Assembly (NCBI RefSeq): GCF_032854445.1
Contig: NC_088305.1
Coordinates: 24,215,400 to 24,279,399, forward strand
Direction of reading: 5' to 3'
Origin: Liolophura sinensis
Taxonomy: Eukaryota; Mollusca; Polyplacophora; Chitonida; Chitonidae
DNA: 64,000 bases
In this document: positions 37,326-61,400 of the stretch, piece after piece
How the letters are laid out: each line of letters begins with the position of its first letter
Numbering within the stretch: the first letter of the stretch is position 1
Translations under genes and position numbers: made by a program
Notes under the pieces: model-generated
Told to the model about the DNA's origin: nothing
The model's database searches: none
The model's input: the letters and a program-made list of their open reading frames with translations, nothing else

Positions 37326-37410
37326 ATGGACAGAAACAGGCTGTCAATTGTGGCAGCTTTTGACGATCTCATTCGAAACACAAGGGTCTTAACACAAAGT
37401 GTCGAACCAG
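37326..37410 (+). CDS. RACGAP1: RACGAP1 coding exon 2 (start codon)
   Basis: The ATG is the first base triplet of the exon (acceptor TTTCCAG). It encodes MDRNRLSIVAAFDDLIRNTR then VLTQSVEP, plus one base. This aligns without gaps to the human N-terminus ending at the same intron. Donor GTGAGT at 37411. Confidence 0.92.
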
Positions 37411-43400: not shown

Positions 43401-46400
43401 CTTAAATAAATAAATATTGCATGTTACCTAAAATTTCATCTGTGATAGTTACTTATTTTGCCTGATTCTGAGAGTTAGGTTGATCTTAGCCCACTTCCAA
43501 AAAGCATCGTAAATCAATTGTTAGTAACTTTTCTTGTAAATGACATCAGCTTATTAGGGTTAACTTTCCTGACTGCCCTAGTATTGTATTTTTGTCCAGA
43601 ATCTAGAAAGGAAATTCAGAATTCCTTTAAGCTGCATATATACATGTTGTAAATAAACATAATGCAAAAGCCTGCTCGCGGATACCCCAACTAAGCTGAG
43701 GTCTGCGCAATCATGGCAGTGTTTTGTATTGTTAACAACTGATTATATATAACTGAGTATGGATCCATGCATGTGAATAATCCAAAGCTCATTGATGGAT
43801 CAGTGAGATTGTATTCTTTACGTGTTGGCTACAGGTACGTGTATTCTTTACTTGTTTGCTACGGGTACATGTATTCTTTACCTGTTGGCTACAGGTACGT
43901 GTATTTTTTCCTGTTGGCTACAGGTACATGTATTCTTTACGTGTTGGCTACAGGTACGTGTATTCTTTACGTGTTGGCTACAGGTACGTGTATTCTTTAC
44001 GTGTTTGCTACGGGTACGTGTATTTTTTCCTGTTGGCTACAGGCACGTGTATTCTTTCCTGTTGGCTACAGGCACGTGTATTCTTTCCTGTTGGCTACAG
44101 GTACATGTATTCTTTACGTGTTGGCTACAGGTACATGTATTCTTTCCGTGTTTGCTACAGGTACGTGTATACTTTGATTTATTCGAGACATTGGAAGTGA
44201 GTTGTACTTGTACTTACTGTGCAGTACCCATTCTTCTGGAGGAGACTAAATTCTCCTACCATGGCTGACACATTCAGAAGGGTACATGTATATATAAAGT
44301 ATGCCTCAGCAATCAAAAAACAGTTTTGGGTGAAGATCATCTGGTGTGGAAGATACCCAGGAGATAGCTGGACACTCTGGCTTACATAACAGTAGCCCTG
44401 ACACAGCCAAGAACTTTCAGTTGATAGATTCCACAGTTTTTTGGCGGGTGGTGGGGGGAGGAGATGGAAGGGAGGTGGGGTGGGGGGGGGGGGGGGGTAT
44501 GCCATGCCTGTAATCAATGTCTTCAAGATGTTCCTGTTTATGGGGTCATCACATGTAGGCTACTATAAGGCTCCTAGAGCAGGCTTACTACCCTTCCTCT
44601 CTGATTTTCCCACGCTACCCTGGTACTACTGCAGCATACTTAACATAGTAGCAGGAGGCACTTCATACATTAGTTCTCCTAATCACTTCTCTGTGGACTT
44701 GTCTGGAGACCAAGGATGGGAGTCGTTTCATAACACTGTGTATTCTGGAAGAAACTGCTTTGTACATGTAGTAGATGAGAAGTCCTTAATGTTGATTTGT
44801 AAGTGGTAAAAGTTCTAAAATCTTGTCTCTGAAAAGTTAAAAGTATATATTTTTTTTTTTGTAAGATACGAATATTCAGAAATTTTTTTGTTTTTTTAAA
44901 GAATGGAAAATTCTAAAAGTTGCCCTGCAAAAGGAGAAGTTGTGTTAAAAGTGAATAGTTTTTAAAGTTGTCTAGCAAACGGTGAAAGTTTTGTAAAAAG
45001 TGGATAGTTCTAAAAGTTGTCCTGGAAAAGGTGTAAATTGGGTAAAAAGTGGAAAGTTATGAAAGCTGTCTCGCAAAAGATAAAAATTGTGTAAAAAGTG
45101 GATAGTTCTCAAAAAAAAATTGTAATAGACTTATAAATGCCATTAAAGTATGTGGGTAGCTCTAAGCAGTTGTTTTGTATTGGGTGAACGTCCTTTTGTA
45201 AAAAGTGGAACACTATAAAGTTACCTTGTAATAGGTGAAAACTATGAAAACAAAGTTTTTTTGACATGTATACATGTCTCAATGCCAAGGAGTACAAAAA
45301 TTGTAATGATTGTAAAAATCTGTAACTAGAGTGAATGCACTCTGGCACAAGTGTCGTTTTTTGAAGGAGTCTGCATTGCTAAATGTGCCATTTCTTTTAG
45401 CTTTGAATTTTGTTGGTTCTGTGCCCTGCATATCTGTATATAGCTCTTTCAAATTTACAAAGCTGTTAATTATTTATAAAGGATGACTCATAAAACACAT
45501 GTTTTTACTTTCTGTATACATTTAGTAAGCAATTATATGTTTTATTGTAGAGGCAATTTTCCACAGGCTTACCAATGACTAATAATATTTTACTCCCCTG
45601 TTATTAGTCAGCTTCCACGTGTCACCATGGAAAACCTTTGTCATTTCCTGATTTATCTGGTGACTAGTTTCACAGTACACTATGTGCAGAAGGAAGTCTC
45701 CACTTAATGTTAACTGGTTACTTTTTCTCATTTCCACTTTCATCCATATATGTAGATGCACATGTAGTAAACAACCATGTAGCTACAAGTGTTATTATAA
45801 AACTTGTAAGGTTTCTTCGGGTCCCTGTATTTCACTTTTGACTAATCTGCCATTAAAGTTATATTGTAGTCTTTTTGTTTCAGCTATGGGCATTCCTCAT
45901 ACTTTACAAATGTCAAGGTGTTTTTACAAATAAATACAATGTACATTTCAAACATGCATTTGTTTGGAAGCCCTTTTTGATGTTCGGTTAATCCCGTCAG
46001 TGTCAGTTTGTCTCTCTTAAAGTTAAGACGCAGTTCTTATTTTAATGATTTGAAAACACAATCTTTTGATGTAGTAGTCTGATTCGTCAGATTTTAAGTT
46101 GTAGCAAAATGGTTTTCATGTGATAAGCTGAATAGATTTTAAAATGTGTACAGTTTTCCTTCTTGTATGATGGACAGCTTTTTTTCCATATACATGTAAA
46201 CTCTCATTATATAGCAAAATAAAAATATTTAAAAAGTTTTCTAATATTCTTTTGATCTGCATTTTGCACTTTTGAACACCGGCATAACCTGACCTTATGG
46301 CAGTGCATGGGCTGGATGGTGTGGACAAACTAGGAGCACATGTGGCCTGACTGTCAGGACCACATGTCCCAGCAAATTGACCCAAAACTACTACATGTAT

Positions 46401-49400
46401 TATGGGAGAGGCGGGGAGGGGGCAAGCAACAGCTTCTTCTGGAAGCCATATGGTCTTTTGATGTTTACAACTCCAAATTTTGATGGAGAGATGAACTTTA
46501 GCAATTGCAGATCTGCTACATCTGTTGCATGTGTTGTTTTTTTTTTGTTGTTTTTTTTTTTGGGGGGGGGTTAACCTTTGACCATATAAATGCTGGCTGC
46601 TGTCGTGTGTAATCCTTGACAGGGCCATATCTAGAACCGTTTTAGTTCTGATAAAGCTTTGGACTCCCACACTAATGAAGCTGTATTGAAACTAGGTTTA
46701 GTTTTCGTACAAATTGTTATATTTTCTGTGTTCACGTAAGGAGCAAATGATTCTGCGACTTACCTATGCATATATACTTCATAACGTGTCCAAAAATAGC
46801 AAAAGAGTTTTTAAGGTGTTCTGAAAATTTCGCAATCTTTGTCAACGAAGGCTTAAAGTTTTGATGCGCGTGTAATTTACAGCACCTTTGAAATCAATAG
46901 TGAAAATTCATATGGGTTTAAGGGAGACTTATGGAAGGTAAAAGGGCGTGACTTTTTCCATGCGCTCTTAAATGGGCTGTGACGTCATATGGCTGATATG
47001 CTACTTGTACATATTGGCTAGATACTGTACATGTATGTATATATACATATGTATGTATCTTGTGCGTTTAATCTTTTGGACCAGGAGCCAGGGTTTTCTG
47101 GATACGTTATTCACTTTTAGTTGTGCAGCACCGAAATTGTATACACTCAGAAAGATTGACGTAGTTGCAGTGGAGGGTGATAAAGATCTGCTGATATTGT
47201 TTATCACCATAATTAAGCAGTTGCATGAGTTAGGTTGTTACCATGACCTAAAACACAAACCTGAAGGAAAAAAAAAAAGAGTATGGTTTTGAAGTCTGTG
47301 AACATGTTAGAAAATACAATTCGGTTCTACAAAGGCCCGGGAGATTTTTTTTTTTTTTTTTTCCTGAAATGTTGGAACTTGATTGAAATTAGGGCACAAT
47401 TCGTTTTTTTTTTTAACCTATGAGTGTTGTAATCATGATGCACATCTTCGTATGTCTCTGACGTCAGCAGGTATGGTTTGTACATAGACAAAGGTATGGT
47501 TTGTGCCTGATATACACATGTATAATGAGTATTTCATGAAGTGTGTAAACCTAGGCCCAATATGTAAGTGTGCATTGTGAACGGGCCGCAAAGTGAAGTC
47601 AATTTTTTTCACCTGCATATGATTTATATTTTGGCAGAGTTTGTGAAATTTGTGCGCAGTGAAGAAGAATGCCGGAGAAAATGGCATGATGCGGAGATCC
47701 AGTGCGACAAACTACGACGGCGGGTAAAGGAAATTGATCAGGAGAAACTGGCACTGGACACACAGCTACGTCATGCCAGGTAAACCTGAATCAAACAAAT
47801 GTCACTCATGCCAGGTAAACCTGAATCAAACAAATGTCACTCATGCCAGGTAAACCTGAATCAAACAAATGTCACTCATGCCAGGTAAACCTGAATCAAA
47901 CAAATGTCACTCATGCCAGGTAAACATGAATCAAACAAATGTCACTCATGCCAGGTAAACATGGATCAAACAAATGTCAGTCATGCCAGGTAAACATGAA
48001 TCACAGATGTCAATCATGCCAGGTAAACATGAATCTAACAGATGTCAGTCATGCCAGGTAAACATGAATCAAATGTCATGCCAGGTAAACATGAATCAAA
48101 CAAATGTCACTCATGCCAGGTAAACATGAATCAAACAGATGTCAGTCATGCCAGGTAAACATGAATCAAACAGATGTCAGTCATGCCAGGTAAACATGAA
48201 TCAAACAGATGTCACTCATGCCAGGTAAACATGAATCAAACAGATGTCAGTCATGCCAGGTAAACATGAATCAAACAAATGTCACTCATGCCAGGTAAAC
48301 ATGGATCAAACAAATGTCAGTCATGCCAGGTAAACATGAATCACAGATGTCAATCATGCCAGGTAAACATGAATCAAACAGATGTCAGTCATGCCAGGTA
48401 AACATGAATCAAATGTCATGCCAGGTAAACATGAATCAAACAAATGTCACTCATGCCAGGTAAACATGAATCAAACAGATGTCAGTCATGCCAGGTAAAC
48501 ATGAATCAAACAGATGTCAGTCATGCCAGGTAAACATGAATCAAACAGATGTCACTCATGCCAGGTAAACATGAATCAAACAGATGTCAGTCATGCCAGG
48601 TAAACATGAATCAAACAGATGTCACTCATGCCAGGTAAACATGAATCAAACAGATGTCACGCATGCCAGGTAAACATGAATCAAACAGATGTCACGCATG
48701 CCAGGTAAACATGAATCAAACAAATGTCACTCATGCCAGGTAAGCATCAATCAAACAGATGTCAGTCATGCCAGGTAAACATGAATCAAACAGATGTCAC
48801 GCATGCCAGGTAAACATGAATCAAACAAATGTCACTCATGCCAGGTAAACATGAATCAAACAAATGTCACTCATGCCAGGTAAACATGAATCAAACAGAT
48901 GTCACTCATGCCAGGTAAACATGAATCAAACAAATGTCAGTCATGCCAGGTAAACATGAATCAAACAAATGTCACTCATGCCAGGTAAACATGAATCAAA
49001 CAAATGTCACGCATGCCAGGTAAACATGAATCAAACAGACGTCACTCATGCCAGGTAAACATGAATCAAACAGACGTCACTCATGCCAGGTAAACATGAA
49101 TCAAACAGATGTCACTCATGCCAGGTAAACATCAGTCAAATGTTTTGCCAGGTATACACCACTCAGACAATCAAATGTCATGCCAGGTATACACCACTCA
49201 GACAATCAAATGTCATGCCAGGTATACACCATACAAATGTCATGCCAGGTATACACCACTCATACAAATGTCATGCCAGGTATACACCACTCAGACAGTC
49301 AAATGTCAAGCCAGGTATACACCACTCAGACAATCAAATGTCAATCAGGTGTACACCACTCAGGCAATCAAATGTCAAGCCAGGTATACACCACTCAGAC

Positions 49401-52400
49401 AAACAAATATCAAGCCGGGTATACACCACTCAGACAATCAAATGTTAAGCCAGGTATACACCACTCATACAAATGCCATGCCAGGTATACAACACTCATC
49501 CAGTCAAATGTCATGCCAAGTATACACCGCTCAACCAATGTCATGACAGCAATGCACTACGCATACATTCAAATGACATGCCAGGTATACACCACTCAGA
49601 CAACCAAATGCCATGCCAGGTATACACCACTCATGTCATTGGTCTATTTGAACCATTATTGTTTTGTTCAGAAATAAAGGAGTACTTATTTCAGATAATG
49701 TTCTCCAAAAAATTGTCTATGTGGTTTGTTTTCCAAGCACAGCATATTCTGAATTTTATTACTTTTATTGTTTCCATGGTAACAGATTTGGCTTATATTT
49801 TGCAGTCTCTGAATGCTGTGTTTTGTTTTTCTGCTATCTAGAAAACAGATTGCCCTGGAAGTTGACAAACGTATGGCCACAGAACGGGAACTGGACAGTG
49901 CGGTACGTCTCTGGTATTCCTTGTGTTCAGGCTCTTGCTTTGTCTCTGTAAGCAACAAGTGTATGGCATATGTTTGTTTTTCAGAGAAAATTGTGGACTT
50001 CTGATTGGTCGGTTGGCCTTGGTTAATCTACCCCATTTTATCACCATTCGGAGAAAACTGTGGACTTCTGATGGGTCGGTTCGCCTTGGTTAAGCTACCC
50101 CATTTGATGAAGAGACAAGGAATACAGCCTGATGCATATTTTCCTTTTTTCCCTGTTTCCTTTTTTTTTTCTTTATACCTAAGTTTCTAAGTCAAGAAAA
50201 GTTGTGCTTAATGCTCTTCATTGTGATTCATGTAAACTGGCGTCAGGTGGATGTTCATTCCGTAATCAGATCATGCTTTTTTTTTTTTCTTAAATTTTCC
50301 TGAACGAAGGATTCTCTGTCTTTATTTCAAGGCCACACTTCTAGGGTCATAAATTACTGGTACTCAGACAGGTGAGACATGCATGTAAACCATGGGTAGA
50401 TGGCAAACTGTGTAAAACCTGTCTGTCTTGTCTTCTCAGGAGAGGCAACTTTGTCTGATCCGGGAACTTTTGAATGACCGGAATCACCGCACCACAATCA
50501 ATGAAGAAGACATGGAGAAGCTCTACGGCCTTGTCAAAGGCAGAGAACGACGCAATATGCATGAGGCACAGTCTCCTTATGGGTTAGTCATGATTGGCAA
50601 AAGAATAAGAGAGTCCAGAGAGCTGATACTGGTTCTTCATTTAGGTCCCATAATGAAAATAATGACTCTACAAAAATGTCGTTATAATGATAATGAGAAC
50701 TCCTCAAAGCAGTGAATATCTGGAGCCTCCTTTGTACAGTAGAAAATAACTAAATCACACTTTACGCTCTTTATGTCAGCTCCTTTTCCTGTTACATTTT
50801 CCGTGCTCTTGCTTTCCCCAGTGGGCTGGAGTCGTCCGCCTCCATCTTGTCTGACATTTACGACCAGACGGACGATGATTTAGAGCGTTCACGACGCTGT
50901 AGCGGGCTACGCTACAAGAAACGCCCCAGTGCCCCACCCCTAGACGAGGATGAAGATGAGTGCCCAACGCCCCCCAAAATGGGCAAAAATGCAGAAGATG
51001 TGAGTATATTATATAATCCATTTACCAGATCGGGTGTATCCCTTAATAAAGATGTAATACCTGCGATGCTAGGAATTGTTTTACTGACAGATATCAGCCA
51101 ATATCTGTTGTTACTGGTTCGTTTGTGCGTTGATTTCCTGGGTCATCAGATTAATACCAAGAAAGTAATAAAAACTGAAGACTTCTACCTGCTAAAGCCA
51201 AAACCCCTGAGGTAAAATTTTACGTTCTTGTTAAAAGTATGTCAAAGGAAGAAAAAACGATGATAACCTTTGGGTTTTTTTTTCAATTTCAGGCTGACAA
51301 CTCTTTCATTACTACAACCACAATAACAGTGGATCGTCAAGGCAACCCGGTGACAGCAAAAACAGAGGTCACCGTGCCGAAGCTGAATAAAAGTTTAAGT
51401 GAACCTGCCCTCGACATTTACCGTGAAGAGCCAGACCGAGACACTGGTAATTCTGGGTTATCTCCCATTGTGAAACTCTTGCTGATTTGAGTGCCACGGA
51501 TCTTGTCGTGTTTATTGAAAAAGATTTTCACTTGTTCCTACCTGGACAGATTTATTTTTTGCCACTTTCACAAAACTTTATTTGTCATAATTCCTGGAGC
51601 TTTTTTTTTTTTTTTTTGTAAATGGTGTTTAGCGACGTGATTTATGAGAAAAACTGGTTTATGAAATTTTTGTCAAAGCGAAACATATACTGTGTAAAGG
51701 AAGAAACACTTTAAATTTAAACTCTCAAATCTTGATTATGTCAGAGAGTGACCCAGAGTCAGAAGACTACTTGTGGACCCCCAACCGCAACAACAATGCC
51801 ATGCGTTACCCCCGAGGAATTCTGAAGCGAACCCCCTCAGAGCCTGAGTAAGTTATATCCTCGTCTGTGGCAATAGAACATATAAAAGCCCACGACAAAA
51901 AGTATCTTCTCTAAAGGTCACCTCGGCAGATAATCTTTAACATGTTTTTGCCACAATACGGCTGAATTATTTGCTGATGTGGTGTTTACGCCGCAATCAT
52001 TCATTCATGCATTCATTTTCTCATTGATAAGCCCACTTCAGTTTTCTCCACACATAAACATTGCCACTGCAAAACTTTGATGAGCAGCATATCAAACACC
52101 ATGCCATTAAATAGTTTTAAATAGTGTTTTTCACCTAAAGTGCAACCTGTAAAATTGCGCTTGAGAAGCACATATCGGTCTGAAAATCTTACTTTTGATG
52201 CCAACTCTTGAAATTCATCAAAATGTTTGAGGTGGATGAAGCAGTAAGAATCAAAACAATGCACAAAGTTTCTAGGTTAGAAGATTAGCTTCATTTGATT
52301 TATTTATTTATTTGATTGGTGTTTTTCACTGTACTCAAGAGTATTTCAGTATTTCACTTATACAATGGCGTACAGCATTATGATGAGTGGAAACCGGGCA

Positions 52401-55400
52401 CAGCCCCATGGGAAACCCACTACCATCTGCAGGTTGCTGGCAGACCTTCCCACGTACATCAGGAGAGGAAGCCAGCATGAGCTGGACTTGAACTCACGGC
52501 AAAGCTGCAGTTGAGCTTTCATCTTTAATTAATGTTATCCAGGTTTAAATACATGTTTTTCTGTTTTATGTTCAGAACGCCAGTTTTAAGAAAAGCAACT
52601 TCAGCCAGCAAAGGTCTGAACAGAGGCCACGTGTTTGACACTAGGAACATCTTCAAACCAGAGACATGTGTGCCAGTAAGTACTCAACACATAACCCCAA
52701 ATTAGCAGTTTGACAAAGTTTGCGATAGGATCACGTCCTCATTCATGCACGGGGACCCACGAGGGCACATGTTTGAGTTCACGATTCGCTCACATTGGTT
52801 TGGCTGTGGCTTTTAGGGGCTCGTCTGGTATGTTACAAAGTGTACTTTCGTCAACTTTAAGCTTTTCGTTTTCCTCCATCCATAGGTTTCGGTGCTGTTG
52901 TAATAGTGAAAAAAACTATTCTTAAACAGCGTGAAACACCAGGTAAGAAAAAAATTGAGTAGGTGATCTTCCTGATTCTTTGATGGAGTGAGAAATGGAG
53001 GTGTTACAGGCAGATGTGCACTTAATTACACTGAATAGCAGAAGTGCAAATTTCCAAAACCAGATTCAACAAATTATTTGAACTTACCCTAAATGACCTA
53101 AATTTCATCCATGACTAAGTTGCCCATTTTTCCAGAATCTTGGAGTTCTATTGATTTTAGAAAGGCATTTTGAGGTGTGTTTGGACGGTAGGGTGGTATA
53201 TTACTGGGAAACGTAAATTTCAGCACCAGAAGAAAAGTTTCATGAAATTTATTTGCCTCCAAAAATACTCTTTTTGAGGTCGAATTCTAAGGTCATTAGG
53301 GTAATTCTACCCCGCATGCATTAACAGAGTATGATTGTACGTACACCTCAGATATAATATTGTAGATTTCAAAATCTCTTAAAATGGGACATTGTGTTGT
53401 TTTTGTGGATATGTGTAGATTTTCCTTTTCATTGTGACTGGATTTTTTATAGAATACTCAACAGGAGCTTTGGTGTGGGACATGTTAAAAATTTGCTCAT
53501 TTCTCTTTTTAGTGTGGAAAGAAGATTGGATTTGGAAGGTTTGCTGTAAAATGCAAAGGTACGCATAATTTTCACATCTGTTCAATCATTGATATTTTCT
53601 GCTTGACCTGAAAGCCAATTTTGATTGCCCAGCAGTAGGGTTTACATTTCCTTAAACTTGAAAATAAAAAAATAATTTTTTTAAATAAGCCTAAGGAATT
53701 GTTTTCACTTAATGGATTGAGGATAGTAAAGTATGCTGACCATGAAATGAATGCATCAACTTGTTAGCTAAGCTTGTGTGCTTGTACTTCCAGACTGCCG
53801 TGCGACGTGTCACCCTGACTGTAAAGATTTACTCCCCTTGCCATGCGTGCCCAATGCTCCCAGTACGCCAGCCACCACAACAAGAAACTTTGTGGTTAGT
53901 ATATCAAGGGCTAATCCTGGCAACAACTCCAACATATATGTGCTTTGTAAAGGTGACAATTTGAAGAGTGGATACGCTCTAAAGGGACAAATAGTAAATC
54001 ACCACAGATTGTCGAATTAAGAAGCTAACTTTAAAAGTTGATTGAGGGGCCCTCCATAGCCAAGGTGGTTAGCAGGCCAGAGGAATGCAATGACTCTCCC
54101 CCGGGCTCCGCCCAGTTTCCTCCCGCCATAATGCTGACCGCCATCGTATAAGTGAAATATTCTTGAGCACAGCTTAAAACACCAAACAAATAATATAAAT
54201 AAATAAGAAGTAGATTGAAAAATGAATTGAAATAGTGTAAAATTTGTTGCATTTGACCTTGGATTTCTTGGTTTTGTTTGAGTGATTGTGTAAGTAACAT
54301 TGCTTTCATCAGACCCACTAGCTTTCAGTCCACTCCCTTTCACCATACAAGATCAGGGCCCAGTCGTCCAAAACTGGTTTAAGACTTAATACCAGATTTA
54401 AGCCAAGTCTTCTGTATTGTACTCACACATGTGGCCTAAAAAAAATTGTTTAACGTTATAATGTGAACTGAAACTGCTGCTGTTATACTTAGACTTTGGA
54501 AAATTGCAGTATCTGCTGAGTTTGGCTAAAATTTAATTATAAAATATGACCTAATACCAGTATTAGCTAATACACTTTCGAACAATTGGGCCCTGGTGTT
54601 CAAACCCAGTCCTTTCTGAACACGTTATATGATTGGTTCTCCAGAAAGTGGATTAGCTCTCAACCAGTTTTAGGCTCATGTACATGTTTTTGAAAGCAGG
54701 TCTCTCTGGCTCAGCTAGGCATTTAAATTTATATATTTATTTATTTATCTATTTATTTTCTTTTGGCGTCTTCCTCAGAGCTCTCCTTTGCTTCTTGGCC
54801 ACTTTTTGATTTTGTAGTGATAAATACTCGTAATACATTAACCATTTATGAAAAGTGAATTATCATCATCGTTATTTTTATTCTTGACAGGGCGTGATCT
54901 CTGACTATGTGTCAAACAGCTCTCCCATGATTCCAGCACTTGTGGTGAGTTTTGCATTTGTACCTGCGCACCCTGCCCCTTAAATATCCCACACAAGGTG
55001 TATCACAAAAATAAACACCAAACTAATACATCATCACAAATTCCCTTTGATCCCCAAGATCTAAAAATACAAAACGTTTCCCCAATCATTCACCCGAGGC
55101 AAAATTTGAGATAACAGTGCAACCCTCACTTTATTGGTTCTTTTTTTCCCCACAGGTACATTGTATTCGGGAGATAGAGAAGAGGGGCATGCATGAAGTA
55201 GGAATATACAGAGTGCCGGGGTAAGCACAAATCAGCTACAAGTAGAGTGTGTGGCAGAAGCTGAGCCACAAGGACAGTGTGGCGGAAGCTGAGCCACAAG
55301 GACAGTGTGGCGGAAGCTGAGTCACAAGTACAGTGTGGCAGAAGCTGAGCCACAAGTACAGTGTGGCGGAAGCTGAGCCACAAGTACAGTGTGGCAGAAG

Positions 55401-58400
55401 CTGAGTCACAAGGACAGTGTGGCGGAAGCTGAGCCACAAGTACAGTGTGGCAGAAGCTGAGCCACAAGTACAGTGTGGCAGAAGCTGAGCCACAAGTACA
55501 GTGTGGCAGAAGCTGGCCCACAAGTACAGTGTGGCAGAAGCTGAGCCCCGAGTACAGTGTGGCAGAAGCTGAGCCCCGAGTACAGTGTGGCGGAAGCTGA
55601 GCCACGAGCGCATTGTGGCAGAAGCTGAGCCACAAGGACAGTGTGGCGGAAGCTGAGCCACAAGTACAGTGTGGCAGAAGCTGAGCCACGAGTACAGTGT
55701 GGCAGAAGCTGAGCCACGAGTACAGTGTGGCAGAAGCTGAGCCACAAGTACAGTGTGGCGGAAGCTGAGCCACAAGTACAGTGTGGCGGAAGCTGAGCCA
55801 CGAGCGCAGTGTGGCGGAAGCTGAGCCACAAGGACAGTGTGGCAGAAGCTGAGCCCCGAGTGCAGTGTGGCGGAAGCTGATTCACAAGTACAGTGTGGCA
55901 GAAGCTGAGTCACAAGTACAGTGTGGCAGAAGCTGAGCCACAAGTACAGTGTGGCAGAAGCTGAGCCACAAGTACAGTGTGGCAGAAGCTGACCCACAAG
56001 TACAGCGTGGCAGAAGCTGAGCCACAAGTACAGCGTGGCAGAAGCTGAGCCACAAGTACAGTGTGGCAGAAGCTGACCCACAAGTACAGCGTGGCAGAAG
56101 CTGAGCCCCGAGTACAGTGTGGCGGAAGCTGAGTCACAAGTGCAGTGTGGCAGAAGCTGGCCCACAAGTACAGTGTGGCGGAAGCTGAGTCACAAGGGAC
56201 AGTGTGGCAGAAGCTGAGTCACAAGGACAGTGTGGCGGAAGCTGAGCCACAAGTACAGTGTGGCAGAAGCTGAGCCACAAGTACAGTGTGGCAGAAGCTG
56301 AGCCACAAGTACAGTGTGGCAGAAGCTGAGCCACAAGTACAGTGTGGCGGAAGCTGAGTCACAAGGACAGTGTGGCAGAAGCTGAGTCACAAGTACAGTG
56401 TGGCAGAAGCTGAGTCACAAGTACAGTGTGGCAGAAGCTGAGCCACAAGGGACAGTGCGGCAGAAGCTGAGCCACAAGTACAGTGTGGCAGAAGCTGGCC
56501 CACAAGTACAGTGTGGCAGAAGCTGAACCCCGAGTACAGTGTGGCGGAAGCTGAGCCACAAGTACAGTGTGGCAGAAGCTGAGCCACAAGTACAGTGTGG
56601 CGGAAGCTGAGCCACAAGGACAGTGTGGCAGAAGCTGGCCCACAAGTACAGTGTGGCAGAAGCTGAGCCACAAGTACAGTGTGGCAGAAGCTGAGCCACA
56701 AGGACAGTGTGGCGGAAGCTGAGTCACAAGTACAGTGTGGCAGAAGCTGAGGTCACAAGTACAGTGTTGCAGAAGCTGAGCCACAAGGACAGTGTGGCAG
56801 AAGCTGAGCCCCGAGTACAGTGTGGCAGAAGCTGAGTCACAAGGACAGTGTGGCAGAAGCTGAGCCACAAGGACAGTGTGGCAGAAGCTGGCCCACAAGT
56901 ACAGTGTGGCAGAAGCTGAGCCCCGAGTACAGTGTGGCGGAAGCTGAGCCACAAGTACAGTGTGGCAGAAGCTGAGCCACAAGTACAGTGTGGCGGAAGC
57001 TGAGCCACAAGGACAGTGTGGCGGAAGGCTGAGTCACAAGTACAGTGTGGCAGAAGCTGAGTCACAAGTACAGTGTGGCAGAAGCTGAGTCACAAGGACA
57101 GTGCGGCAGAAGCTGAGTCACAAGTACAGTGTGGCAGAAGCTGGCCCACAAGTACAGTGTGGCAGAAGCTGAGCCCCGAGTACAGTGTGGCGGAAGCTGA
57201 GTCACAAGTACAGTGTGGCAGAAGCTGAGCCACAAGTACAGTGTGGCAGAAGCTGAGCCACAAGTACAGTGTGGCAGAAGCTGGCCCACAAGTACAGTGT
57301 GGCGGAAGCTGAGCCACGAGCGCAGTGTGGCGGAAGCTGAGCCACGAGTACAGTGTGGCAGAAGCTGAGCCACAAGGACAGTGTGGCAGAAGCTGAGCCC
57401 CGAGTGCAGTGTGGCGGAAGCTGAGCCACTAGCGCAGTGCGGCGGAAGCTGAGCCACGAGCCCAGTGCGGCAGGAGCTGAGCCACGAGCTAAAACACCAA
57501 TCAAATAAATAAATCTTAAAACCATTAGACTTTTGTTAACATCAAGTAGAAAACAGTTTGTTGAAAAATTTGTCCAAATAGGGGATGTCTTTAATGACAT
57601 CTATTCCAGGTGAAAATGCATGGTTACATCTCATGTCATAGAAAAGATTAAAATAGGTTGATATCATTTGAAATTGGAAATTTTGTACAGATTTCCTGAA
57701 GAAGTTCACAGTGAGAATCTTGTGTTTCTTTTGCAGCTCCACCAAGCAAGTGAGAGAATTGAAAGAGAAATTCTTAAAGGGCAAAGTTCCAAATCTGGTA
57801 AGTTACCCAATGGCTGCATGGAATCAAGTTGTTTCACTTTGGAAATAGTAAAGATAAGCTCATGGTTCTAGCGTTGATAAATTCTGAGCATATACTGCAC
57901 CAAAATTTCGCAGAAGAAAAGATTTTTTGACACACCAGTAATGTTAAGACACAATTTAGTATTTACTATCAAGCATTCATGAAGAAATATTATCATTCGT
58001 AATGTCTGGAACAATCAGCTACATCTTACAAATTATGGAAAACGCTTAGGGAAATCAGGGTGAGTACGGTGGGAAGGAGAGGGACATTTTGCCCTTGATA
58101 ACAGATCACCTGGCATTCTAACTGTGAGGTTGGGAGTTTAACTCTGCTCCGAGGGTCATGAACTTAACGTGGAAGATTTTTGTTTGTTTAACATTCCATC
58201 TACATGTATAAACTTGAATTCTTCTGATTCCATGAACAAGTGCCAATTCACTGTAGCTGTGATATCTCTAATTTCATGTGGTCTTGCACCCAGGACCCTT
58301 GTTAAATGAATGGCCCATGTTAAAAGATAAGAGCCCTGTGCTGAAGGACACCATATCGAAAAATATTGTTCTGTGTTTCAGTCCCATGTGGATGACATCA

Positions 58401-61400
58401 ACGTAGTGTGTGGTTGTGTCAAGGACTTTCTTCTGAAGCTCAAGGAACCCCTCATCACTTACAGGATGTGGCAGGAGTTTGTCGATGCAGCCAGTAAGTT
58501 GTCATGGAAAGACTCTGACAGAACATAAAGTTAATTGTACCCAGCAAGATTCTTCAGAGCCTTGGTGGCTGTAAGTCATTGAAGATTCTCTTAATTCTGT
58601 GGAAGTTCTTTAGCTGGAGACCACATGCCTTCTGACATATGACATTTTGTGGAGAAGTTCTCAAGTAAGTCACCAAAGGTTGGTGGTTCAGTCTGTGCAC
58701 CTGGACGTCCTCCACACATAACCACCTGGTCCTCCACAGCCATGTGCAAATTCTGTGCGATTTAGGAGAAATGAACTGCAAAACAATTGTTACACTAAGG
58801 GTTTGCTGTGTTTGAATCTAGCCGGGGTTGGACTCATGGTAAAAGAGCAGATCAGCTAATGACATACATTGTTGTATAAAATGCAGGAGTTTTGTCCCTG
58901 TTTGTCTGTCTGTCTGTCCATGTGAAACAGTAAGAGATTAATCGTTTTGATCTATTGCAGCTGAGTGGAATGAGTTGAGAGGTGAAACATCTTTATATTC
59001 AAGTCCCTCTTTGTTCGTGGTGTCGTTTTTCACTAGTTGTAACTAAACAGTCTGAGGGACCCAAGTTAGGGGTGGGGAAGCCTGCTTTACACAGGTGCAC
59101 TGTTTAATAGGCTGGGCCCTGTTCCCTAAAGTATTTCATTGTAATCGCCATGACTGCAAAGGTCCTATGTTTCCTTGGTAGTTACCATCATCTTACTTTA
59201 AGATAAGTTTGTGGAATGGATACCTGAGCATGTCACAGAAATGTTTTAACCAACTGAAGAGAATCAGAAATACCAGTCATTCTCTCTTACATGTATCTGA
59301 TACCCCAGCCTTGCAACACAGCCAGTAAAATTTTCAACGGTACCCCCATTTCTTGCAATTTTTAGGGCATATTTCTAGTGCTGAAAGTAAAAAATTACAT
59401 TTATTGCCCCATTTTTTTGAACAGTAAAGATATGAATATGTTGTTGGACTATGTGAAAAAAAAAACATATAGCTAAAGAGAGCAGAGCGAGCGTCCCAAA
59501 AATTAGAAGAATTAGGATTCACAAAAATTAATGGTTCAGAATTCATTAGCACCACATGATTTTTGCGGAAAAAATAAATTTTGTTTTTTTTCCCCTCTTT
59601 TGATCTTGGGTGTTTTTACCCTTTATGTTGTCAGGCTGCCCTGTTTCTATTCACTGGACTTCTAACCAGCTCATTATCCTGTTTCCTGAAATAATTGTTC
59701 ATCACAACTTGCACAACATTTACTCTGTTGCATTTGTTATCAACTAACAGAGGTCTGTCAGCAACGTGCTGATGGTTGTGGTTTCCCGCTTTCCTCCTAC
59801 CATAATGCAGGCCACTGTTGTATCAGTGAAATATTCTTGAGTACGGGGTAATACGCCAATCAAATAAATAAATATTAAAATAACAGGTTAATCAGTTTTC
59901 CCTGGTACACGTACACTGTAATAATGACCTCGGTGTGTGTCATGGCTTTTTGTCCTGGTTGTGGGGAGTGCTTATTACCAGTGCTAGATTTTTGGGGCTA
60001 ATGTTTGGGTCACATACCAGTCCCTGCTGCTGTTTTTGCAGGAACCTTGCACATTTTTCCCTAACCATACAACTGGATTTGTCCAATGGAAAATAGTGTA
60101 AGAATTACTGTGTACCGTACTGGAATTAACAAGTTTTTAACTTTGTTTGCGTCCAGCAATAAGCAGTGGTTGTTTTCATCTCTAATTTCTGAGCCAAAAT
60201 TTGTTCTGCTTATCTTCTTGTCCAGCTTATTGTATATTTCGGTGGGGCCTCCGTGGCTGAGAGGCTAGTAGGCCTGCATAGCACAATGACCAAGGGGCCT
60301 CTCAGCAATGCGGTCGCTGTCAGCTGAAGTCCAGTTCATGCTGGCTTCCTCTTCGTTGGTAAGTGGGAAGATCTTCCAGCAACCAGCGGATGGCCATGGG
60401 TTTCCTCCGGACTCTGCTTGGTTTCCTCCCACGATAATGCTGGTCATTGTCGCACAAGTGAAATATTCTATAGTATGGTGTAAAACACAAGTGAAATAAA
60501 AAAATAAATGTTGTAATTGTCCACGTTTACATGCAAATGGAGAATAAATGTAGACTTTTCTCACATTCTCCTTCAGCTGACCCTCATTTTGAGCACGACA
60601 GAAGTCGATTGTGTATCGCGGTGAAGAATCTGCCACCAGCTAACAAGGACACATTGGCCTTCTTAATCGTACATCTGCAGAAGTAAGTCACAACAAGTTG
60701 GAGTCGTTGTAGTTGTGTCACTTCCTCTCCAAATGCCTGCCTATGCTTTTCTACACAAGATGTTTTGAAGTCTTAACCGGAGTTACAGCCCTTGATGCGC
60801 TTCAGGCCTGCTTTCAGTTTAATTGTTTCAGCATACTTTATTTCTTCAGAAGTTGAAATGAGTTTTGGGAATTTGTGATGCTTATTCATGTAGCCAAATG
60901 ACCACATAATCATTACAGATTGTAGTCATCAAGGGGCGTCTGCTGTATTATTTTATATTAATTACCGCATGACCACATCATCATTACAGATTGTAGTCAT
61001 CAAGGGGCGTCTGCTGTATTATTTTATATTAATTACCGCATGACCACATCATCATTACAGATTATAGTCATCAAGGGGCGTCTGCTGTATTATTTTATAC
61101 TAATTACCGCATGACCACATCACCATTACAGATTATAGTCATCAAGGGGTCAAAAAAAAAAACCCATTCTACCCATTTCTTTGGTCATTGTGCTTAACTG
61201 TTTGATAAGATATATTAAAACAGTACTTTTTACATCAATTACATAAAATCTGATAGGTGGAGTACCTAGTGCAAAGTGTGAATGATGTATCAGTCATGTT
61301 GTAGAGTTCAAGACCAGCTCATGCTGGCTTACGTGCTGGCTTACGTGCGAAGGTCTGCCAGCAATCTACGGATGGTCGTGGGTTTCCTCTGGGCTCGCCC

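Follow-up and report, generated by a model that had tools for sequence, protein, structure and literature searches.

Tandem duplications of exon-intron borders have been described in lancelets under the name of mirages, and their copy number there varies between haplotypes (PMC3087553, PMC3902484). The lancelet genes concerned are Adh3, the globins BflGb6 and BflGb9 and troponin C, with similar repeats in PGBD5 (PMC3902484). A minisatellite of the human gene IFI6 is alike in kind, being a tandem repeat at an exon end with donors in its units, two downstream units of which are used (PMC4526556). Here we describe an array on the donor side of intron 3 of the RACGAP1 gene in the chiton Liolophura sinensis, situated at 47771-49633 of a window of 64,000 nucleotides (contig NC_088305.1, positions 24,215,400 to 24,279,399, forward strand; positions without a contig label are those of the window). 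It is of the same kind as the lancelet mirages, i.e. made of tandem copies of an exon-intron border, and we consider it probable that it is a neutral minisatellite seeded by the splice junction and tolerated since the exon can still rely on its first donor.

The chiton array differs from its lancelet relatives in occurring in a mollusc, in having 55 units compared with 3 and 6 in two BflGb6 haplotypes, and in being a donor-side array with units of mostly 35 bp, as against 10-160 bp in lancelets; furthermore, such arrays are found at several genes of one genome, and were set against control words. While the later units of IFI6 give other protein isoforms, those of RACGAP1 give an immediate stop, and an open frame running through the extensions as in IFI6 was not found at RACGAP1, where AGG TAA stands at the first junction. 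UBC is also reported to hold a tandem array of AGGT sites (PMC10809524), although these delimit coding monomers, whereas the chiton sites are intronic and, judged by eye, come without a pyrimidine tract. Duplicated segments bearing AGGT are likewise the basis of intron gain by tandem duplication (Rogers 1989; fission yeast and potato; PMC4974935), the fission yeast case involving several copies of 24 bp (PMC4974935), but in that process the new intron appears within an exon, while in the chiton an existing intron grows. The kind is already known from lancelets and IFI6; the occurrence in a mollusc and the approach to genome scale appear to be the new part. No report of donor arrays in chitons or other molluscs, and no genome-wide count, was found in the literature surveyed by titles and abstract openings, and a term search of the main text of a comparative chiton genome paper (PMC12005716) found neither "tandem repeat" nor "minisatellite".

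The RACGAP1 model comprises 13 exons with canonical borders in a single open frame without a stop (47638 to 58493), and a start-codon exon at 37326-37410, the best-scoring candidate in a scan, fits upstream. Exon numbers follow a partial RACGAP1 model of exons 2-15. The model translation contains RhoGAP (3.6e-22) and C1 (1.1e-08) domains and has Rac GTPase-activating protein 1 as its top PDB matches (E 4.8e-31), which bears out the gene identity proposed in a first-pass annotation of the window; the placement of the array at the exon 3/intron 3 junction was also correct, with the numbering of the partial model. The N-terminal part of the protein has no usable PDB relative against which the H-A-R exon end could be set (best E 0.053, to another protein). 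Human RACGAP1, we assume, has HAR at the same place as the end of chiton exon 3. When exon 3 plus one base was searched against the 609 Mb genome, a single match was found, namely itself. The features of the locus are the following, with a slash marking the exon-intron or intron-exon border.

47638..47779, plus strand: RACGAP1 exon 3 (...TQLRHA/R), 142 nt, with acceptor TTTTGGCAG and true donor CAG/GTAAAC (GT at 47780); open frame continuous with the next exons

47771..47779, plus strand: end of exon 3, 9 bases (TCATGCCAG), which unit 1 owes to the exon; some later units match over 10 bases, starting at 47770; unit list and shuffle test

47771..49142, plus strand: A array, units 1-40, mostly 35 bp, with 39 CCAG/GTAAAC and one CCAG/GTAAGC; Tandem Repeats Finder (TRF) and unit list

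47911..48590, plus strand: duplicated block, in which units 15-24 (48251-48590) are a second copy of units 5-14 (47911-48250), differing at 1 of 340 bases; unit comparison

48737..48745, plus strand: top-scoring donor of the array, CAG/GTAAGC in unit 29 (GT at 48740), score 7.35, above the true donor, by an approximate weight table

49143..49633, plus strand: B array, units 41-55, more diverged, with 11 CCAG/GTATAC; TRF and unit list

49842..49902, plus strand: RACGAP1 exon 4, preceded by the intron 3 acceptor, CTGCTATCTAG/AAAACAG; gene model

TRF reported the array as two blocks with a period of 35 bp, one at 47771-49140 with 39.7 copies (93% match) and one at 49136-49633 with 14.9 copies (81% match). 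When cut at the donor core the array falls into 55 units, and the about 39 plus 14 units announced for 47771..49640 thereby become 40 of type A and 15 of type B within 47771-49633. The units are mostly 35 bp long, the other lengths being 27, 31, 33, 34 and 38 bp, and unit 55 ends early at 23 bases. AGGT was found 52 times in 47761-49660, namely as CCAGGTAAAC (39), CCAGGTATAC (11), CCAGGTAAGC (1) and TCAGGTGTAC (1). The A units are near-uniform, and units 1-4 are identical and contain a base (CCTGAATC) that is absent from the remaining A units. The 340-bp block duplication with its single difference suggests recent turnover, as seen in one haplotype. The B units, distant from the exon, are more diverged than the A units and therefore likely older, and the likely history is that of an old array followed by a younger expansion on the exon side. 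The donor core CCAGGT had been put forward as the best-kept part of the unit, which holds weakly for the A units (0 changes in 240 cells, a value equally low in 7 of 30 six-base windows, CCAGGT included) and fails for the B units (6 changes in 90, with 16 of 30 windows, CCAGGT included, equal or lower). Collapse or invention of the array during assembly is unlikely because the mean HiFi read length of 8,347 bp (PMC11068029) exceeds the length of the array; this assembly was published as Liolophura japonica (PMC11068029), and the species was corrected to Liolophura sinensis (PMC12441733).

The units contain 9-10 exon bases together with GTAAAC, i.e. the exon-intron border has been copied. Unit 1 opens with the final 9 bases of exon 3, and later units show them again in the same register ahead of their donor, the match reaching 10 bases against some of these units. 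None of 1000 shuffled exon ends attained the real score, and the ends of the twelve other RACGAP1 exons scored 8-13, compared with 18 for exon 3. Both the exon bases in the units and the shuffle test uphold seeding from the junction, as first supposed; at RACGAP1 the direction from exon to array appears probable from the sequence, and it is better established at another gene of the same genome (locus L054, see below). The segment duplicated in tandem would thus have comprised 9-10 bases from the end of exon 3 and about 26 from the start of intron 3; its expansion probably took two or more waves, giving first the B units and then the A units beside the exon. Such an array is presumably tolerated because the added copies all fall in the intron, while the first copy keeps the exon end and its donor.

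Donors were scored with an approximate weight table, to which all donor scores given here refer. The true donor scores 3.55, equal to the other 38 copies of CAG/GTAAAC, whereas the 11 CAG/GTATAC donors are weak (0.57 each). Donor-like sites with scores of at least 3.5 occur at 21.4 per kb in the array and at 1.0 per kb elsewhere on the plus strand of the window. About 50 competing donors, as the first-pass annotation had it, cannot be taken as fact: 39 share the core, the 11 CAG/GTATAC donors are weak, and one outscores the true donor. Its prediction for the second donor was in turn confirmed by translation through the junction, as read-through of the first donor gives H-A-R-stop (AGG TAA), and since this stop lies directly past the first donor, every later donor meets the same one. 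Exon definition across the 142 nt of exon 3 most likely keeps the spliceosome at the first donor, and an mRNA made from any later donor, with AGG TAA added, would be expected to go to nonsense-mediated decay.

Donor arrays were also found beside exons of other genes. The upstream side was taken for 34 donor arrays in all, 14 of the 18 distinct ones in a CAGGTRAG listing and 20 of the 25 new ones in an AAGGTRAG listing; these are the first places listed, on one chromosome, and hence a non-random sample. In 7 of the 34 a Pfam-supported open frame runs into the first donor, with domains at or above the Pfam cut-off in four (SNF2 in L054, ankyrin in L059, gelsolin in L066 and SID-1 in L077) and below it in three (NUDIX in L060, 7tm_2 in L065, and 7tm_1 in L067 at a second try with a longer peptide). 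The alignment of the L054 exon with a solved "Helicase-like protein" (7zb5, E 1.6e-17), which we take to be Mot1/BTAF1, extends up to the final residue of the exon, and the last 21 exon bases, encoding CDLSPLQ, recur exactly in later units. This exon must be the source of its array, because the exon bases of the unit encode residues that align with a distant solved helicase. In L067, 11 exon bases are common to later units, with one mismatch. Six further arrays (L044, L049, L052, L069, L071 and L075) show only an open frame that leads into the first donor; in the five tested of these (all except L044) the frame has no Pfam match, and the exon bases common to later units number 2 in L049 and 6 in L071. 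Of the 14 cases or candidates that abut an exon, i.e. RACGAP1, the seven and the six, 13 meet a stop within 1-26 codons when read past the first donor. At L077 (C1:95188150-95189850, minus strand), a SID-1-like exon is followed by an array with periods of 21 and 42 bp, and the frame stays open through all sequence examined, first VSPSVMK-like and then EGKSLSH-like. Later donors of L077 would accordingly add in-frame repeats, as in human IFI6, to which this array is nearer than that of RACGAP1. With much the same found at other genes of the genome, no function specific to RACGAP1 need be invoked.

For comparison, 19 of the 21 distinct arrays in a listing of the control word CAGTGRAG were taken, 17 of which had testable peptides. 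None of the 20 control peptides sent (27 were listed) matched Pfam at E 0.01, giving 0 of 17 arrays. On the donor side 32 of the 34 arrays were tested (all but L044 and L046), and a Pfam-supported exon at the start was thus found in 7 of 32 donor arrays and 0 of 17 control arrays (p = 0.039, weaker hits included). The two sides were treated not quite alike, as the control peptides extended about 90 bases into the array and one donor Pfam run used an E limit of 0.1.

Donor words in tandem were counted genome-wide as triples, i.e. three words at steps of 18-48 bases. CAGGTRAG gave 2506 triples and the reversed pattern 541, while the control word CAGTGRAG, of similar frequency (57,154 single hits compared with 59,903 for CAGGTRAG), gave 827 and its reverse 662. 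Per 100 single hits this amounts to 4.18 triples for the donor word, 2.29 for its reverse, and 1.45 and 2.37 for the two controls. AAGGTRAG gave 977 triples, its reverse 384. The acceptor word TTYTTCAG had 608 triples in 125,104 single hits (0.49 per 100) and its reverse 156 in 54,970 (0.28). All of these are counts of hits and not of arrays, big arrays being counted many times and words varying in their proneness to form arrays, and counts of repeats are lower bounds. The RACGAP1 array is not unique, given the 2506 donor-word triples and the donor arrays beside other exons. A special seeding mechanism favouring donors was considered and is not shown by these counts, as the acceptor word shows a similar excess over its reversed control. 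Arrays with acceptor-like units exist too on C1-C3, e.g. at C2:18137188 (TTCTTCAGGCAATGTGG...), and this genome may hold acceptor-side mirages as well.

Several results weigh against a tolerated, junction-seeded minisatellite with a faithfully used first donor. That donor is only moderate (3.55), while a later one scores 7.35. Of the 34 donor arrays, 21 show no exon by the frame and Pfam tests, and the exon bases common to later units are few in L060 (6), L066 (7) and L077 (9, with one mismatch). If Pfam's own cut-offs are applied, the comparison with the control arrays falls to 4 of 32 versus 0 of 17 (p = 0.17), and the donor peptides were in part picked by eye and ended at the donor, with L067 tried again and the controls given no second try. 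Finally, relative to single hits the donor word exceeds its own reverse 1.8-fold and the acceptor word does so 1.7-fold, and with values this similar no special preference for donors emerges.

An array such as this could also be a working splice element, in which every AG/GT of the units acts as acceptor and donor alike and the intron is removed stepwise or variably, as in UBC. The 52 AGGT at mostly 35-bp steps fit such a role, as do the tandem dual-specific AGGT sites reported for UBC itself and the reported 8.4-fold enrichment of such introns in tandem repeat genes (PMC10809524), and the mRNA need not change, since splicing to the AG of a unit would regenerate a donor. We nevertheless regard this as unlikely, given that the bases before CCAG, AAATGTCACTCATGCCAG, by eye form no pyrimidine tract, and that the units differ in length and those of type B have weak donors. 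The same stop behind all later donors, together with the one donor that outscores the first, would alternatively permit the array to tune RACGAP1 output, with some transcripts using later donors, carrying AGG TAA and being degraded, so that array length sets expression; human IFI6, where two downstream repeat units are used as donors (PMC4526556), lends this some plausibility. The lancelet mirage data, however, suggest that regular splicing is undisturbed (PMC3087553, PMC3902484), and we consider tuning improbable.

An origin without any seeding by the exon, in which an intronic array matches the exon end by chance or has converted it, could be argued from the many other minisatellites in the window, e.g. 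the one in intron 13, which begins near a donor without any exon bases. Against this, a match of 9-10 bases in donor register is not chance (0 of 1000 shuffles; other exon ends 8-13 versus 18), and at L054 the exon came first, as its bases in the unit encode the helicase-aligned residues; we hold an unseeded origin to be highly improbable. A broader proposal is that many introns, perhaps hundreds when extrapolated from the hit counts, start with arrays of real donors that are kept not only by neglect: such closely spaced, near-identical donors could recruit numerous U1 particles, shield long introns from premature polyadenylation and make recursive or dual-specific splicing possible, and intron 3 of RACGAP1, with about 50 sites, would be one such case. 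An AATAAA does lie at 49673, 40 bases beyond the end of the array, although it is of little weight alone because it is one of 74 on the plus strand of the window, and the proposal as a whole seems to us very doubtful.

The interest of a junction-seeded, tolerated minisatellite lies in the choice among many near-identical donors, which is usually studied with engineered duplicates. The chiton array is a natural series in which a single exon is followed by identical donors, spaced mostly at a constant 35 bp, and in which any error is flagged by a stop that is already present; the similar arrays at further genes of the same animal extend this natural test of splice-site choice. Public RNA reads of the chiton (BioProject PRJNA973839, named in PMC11068029) could show to what extent exon definition is by itself enough to secure use of the first donor. 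Mirages, for which lancelets and, in kind, a human gene were the sole sources known to us, are hereby found in a mollusc and on a scale approaching that of the genome, which is relevant to the lengthening of introns and to errors in gene annotation.

Other minisatellites were found both in the window and elsewhere. RACGAP1 itself contains the following one.

55234..57485, plus strand: second intronic RACGAP1 minisatellite, 28 bp, 79.8 copies by TRF (TRF start 55249)

The first recognisable unit bases of this intron-13 array lie 13 bases inside the intron, so that it hugs a donor without containing exon bases, and an exon origin was rejected, as the end of exon 13 plus 8 bases reaches its score in 249 of 1000 shuffles. 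A 30-bp array at 43810-44175, whose unit contains GGCTACAG/GTACG, is placed by the model in RACGAP1 intron 2, 6.4 kb from the preceding exon and 3.5 kb from the next. Outside the window, CATGCCAGGTAAAC was found at five places in the genome, three of which (L001, L004 and L005) looked like single occurrences in the 240 bases read at each. The other two belong to one 71-bp minisatellite (L040 6468-9091, C1 around 92441088), two copies of which hold CATGCCAGGTAAACATGG, and only a core of 14-17 bases is clearly common with the RACGAP1 unit. Lastly, the loci L010, L023-L028 and L039 (C1 0.16-0.54 Mb) are almost wholly minisatellite, a share that is biased because the loci were centred on arrays; the assembly paper puts simple repeats and the like at 0.08% (PMC11068029).

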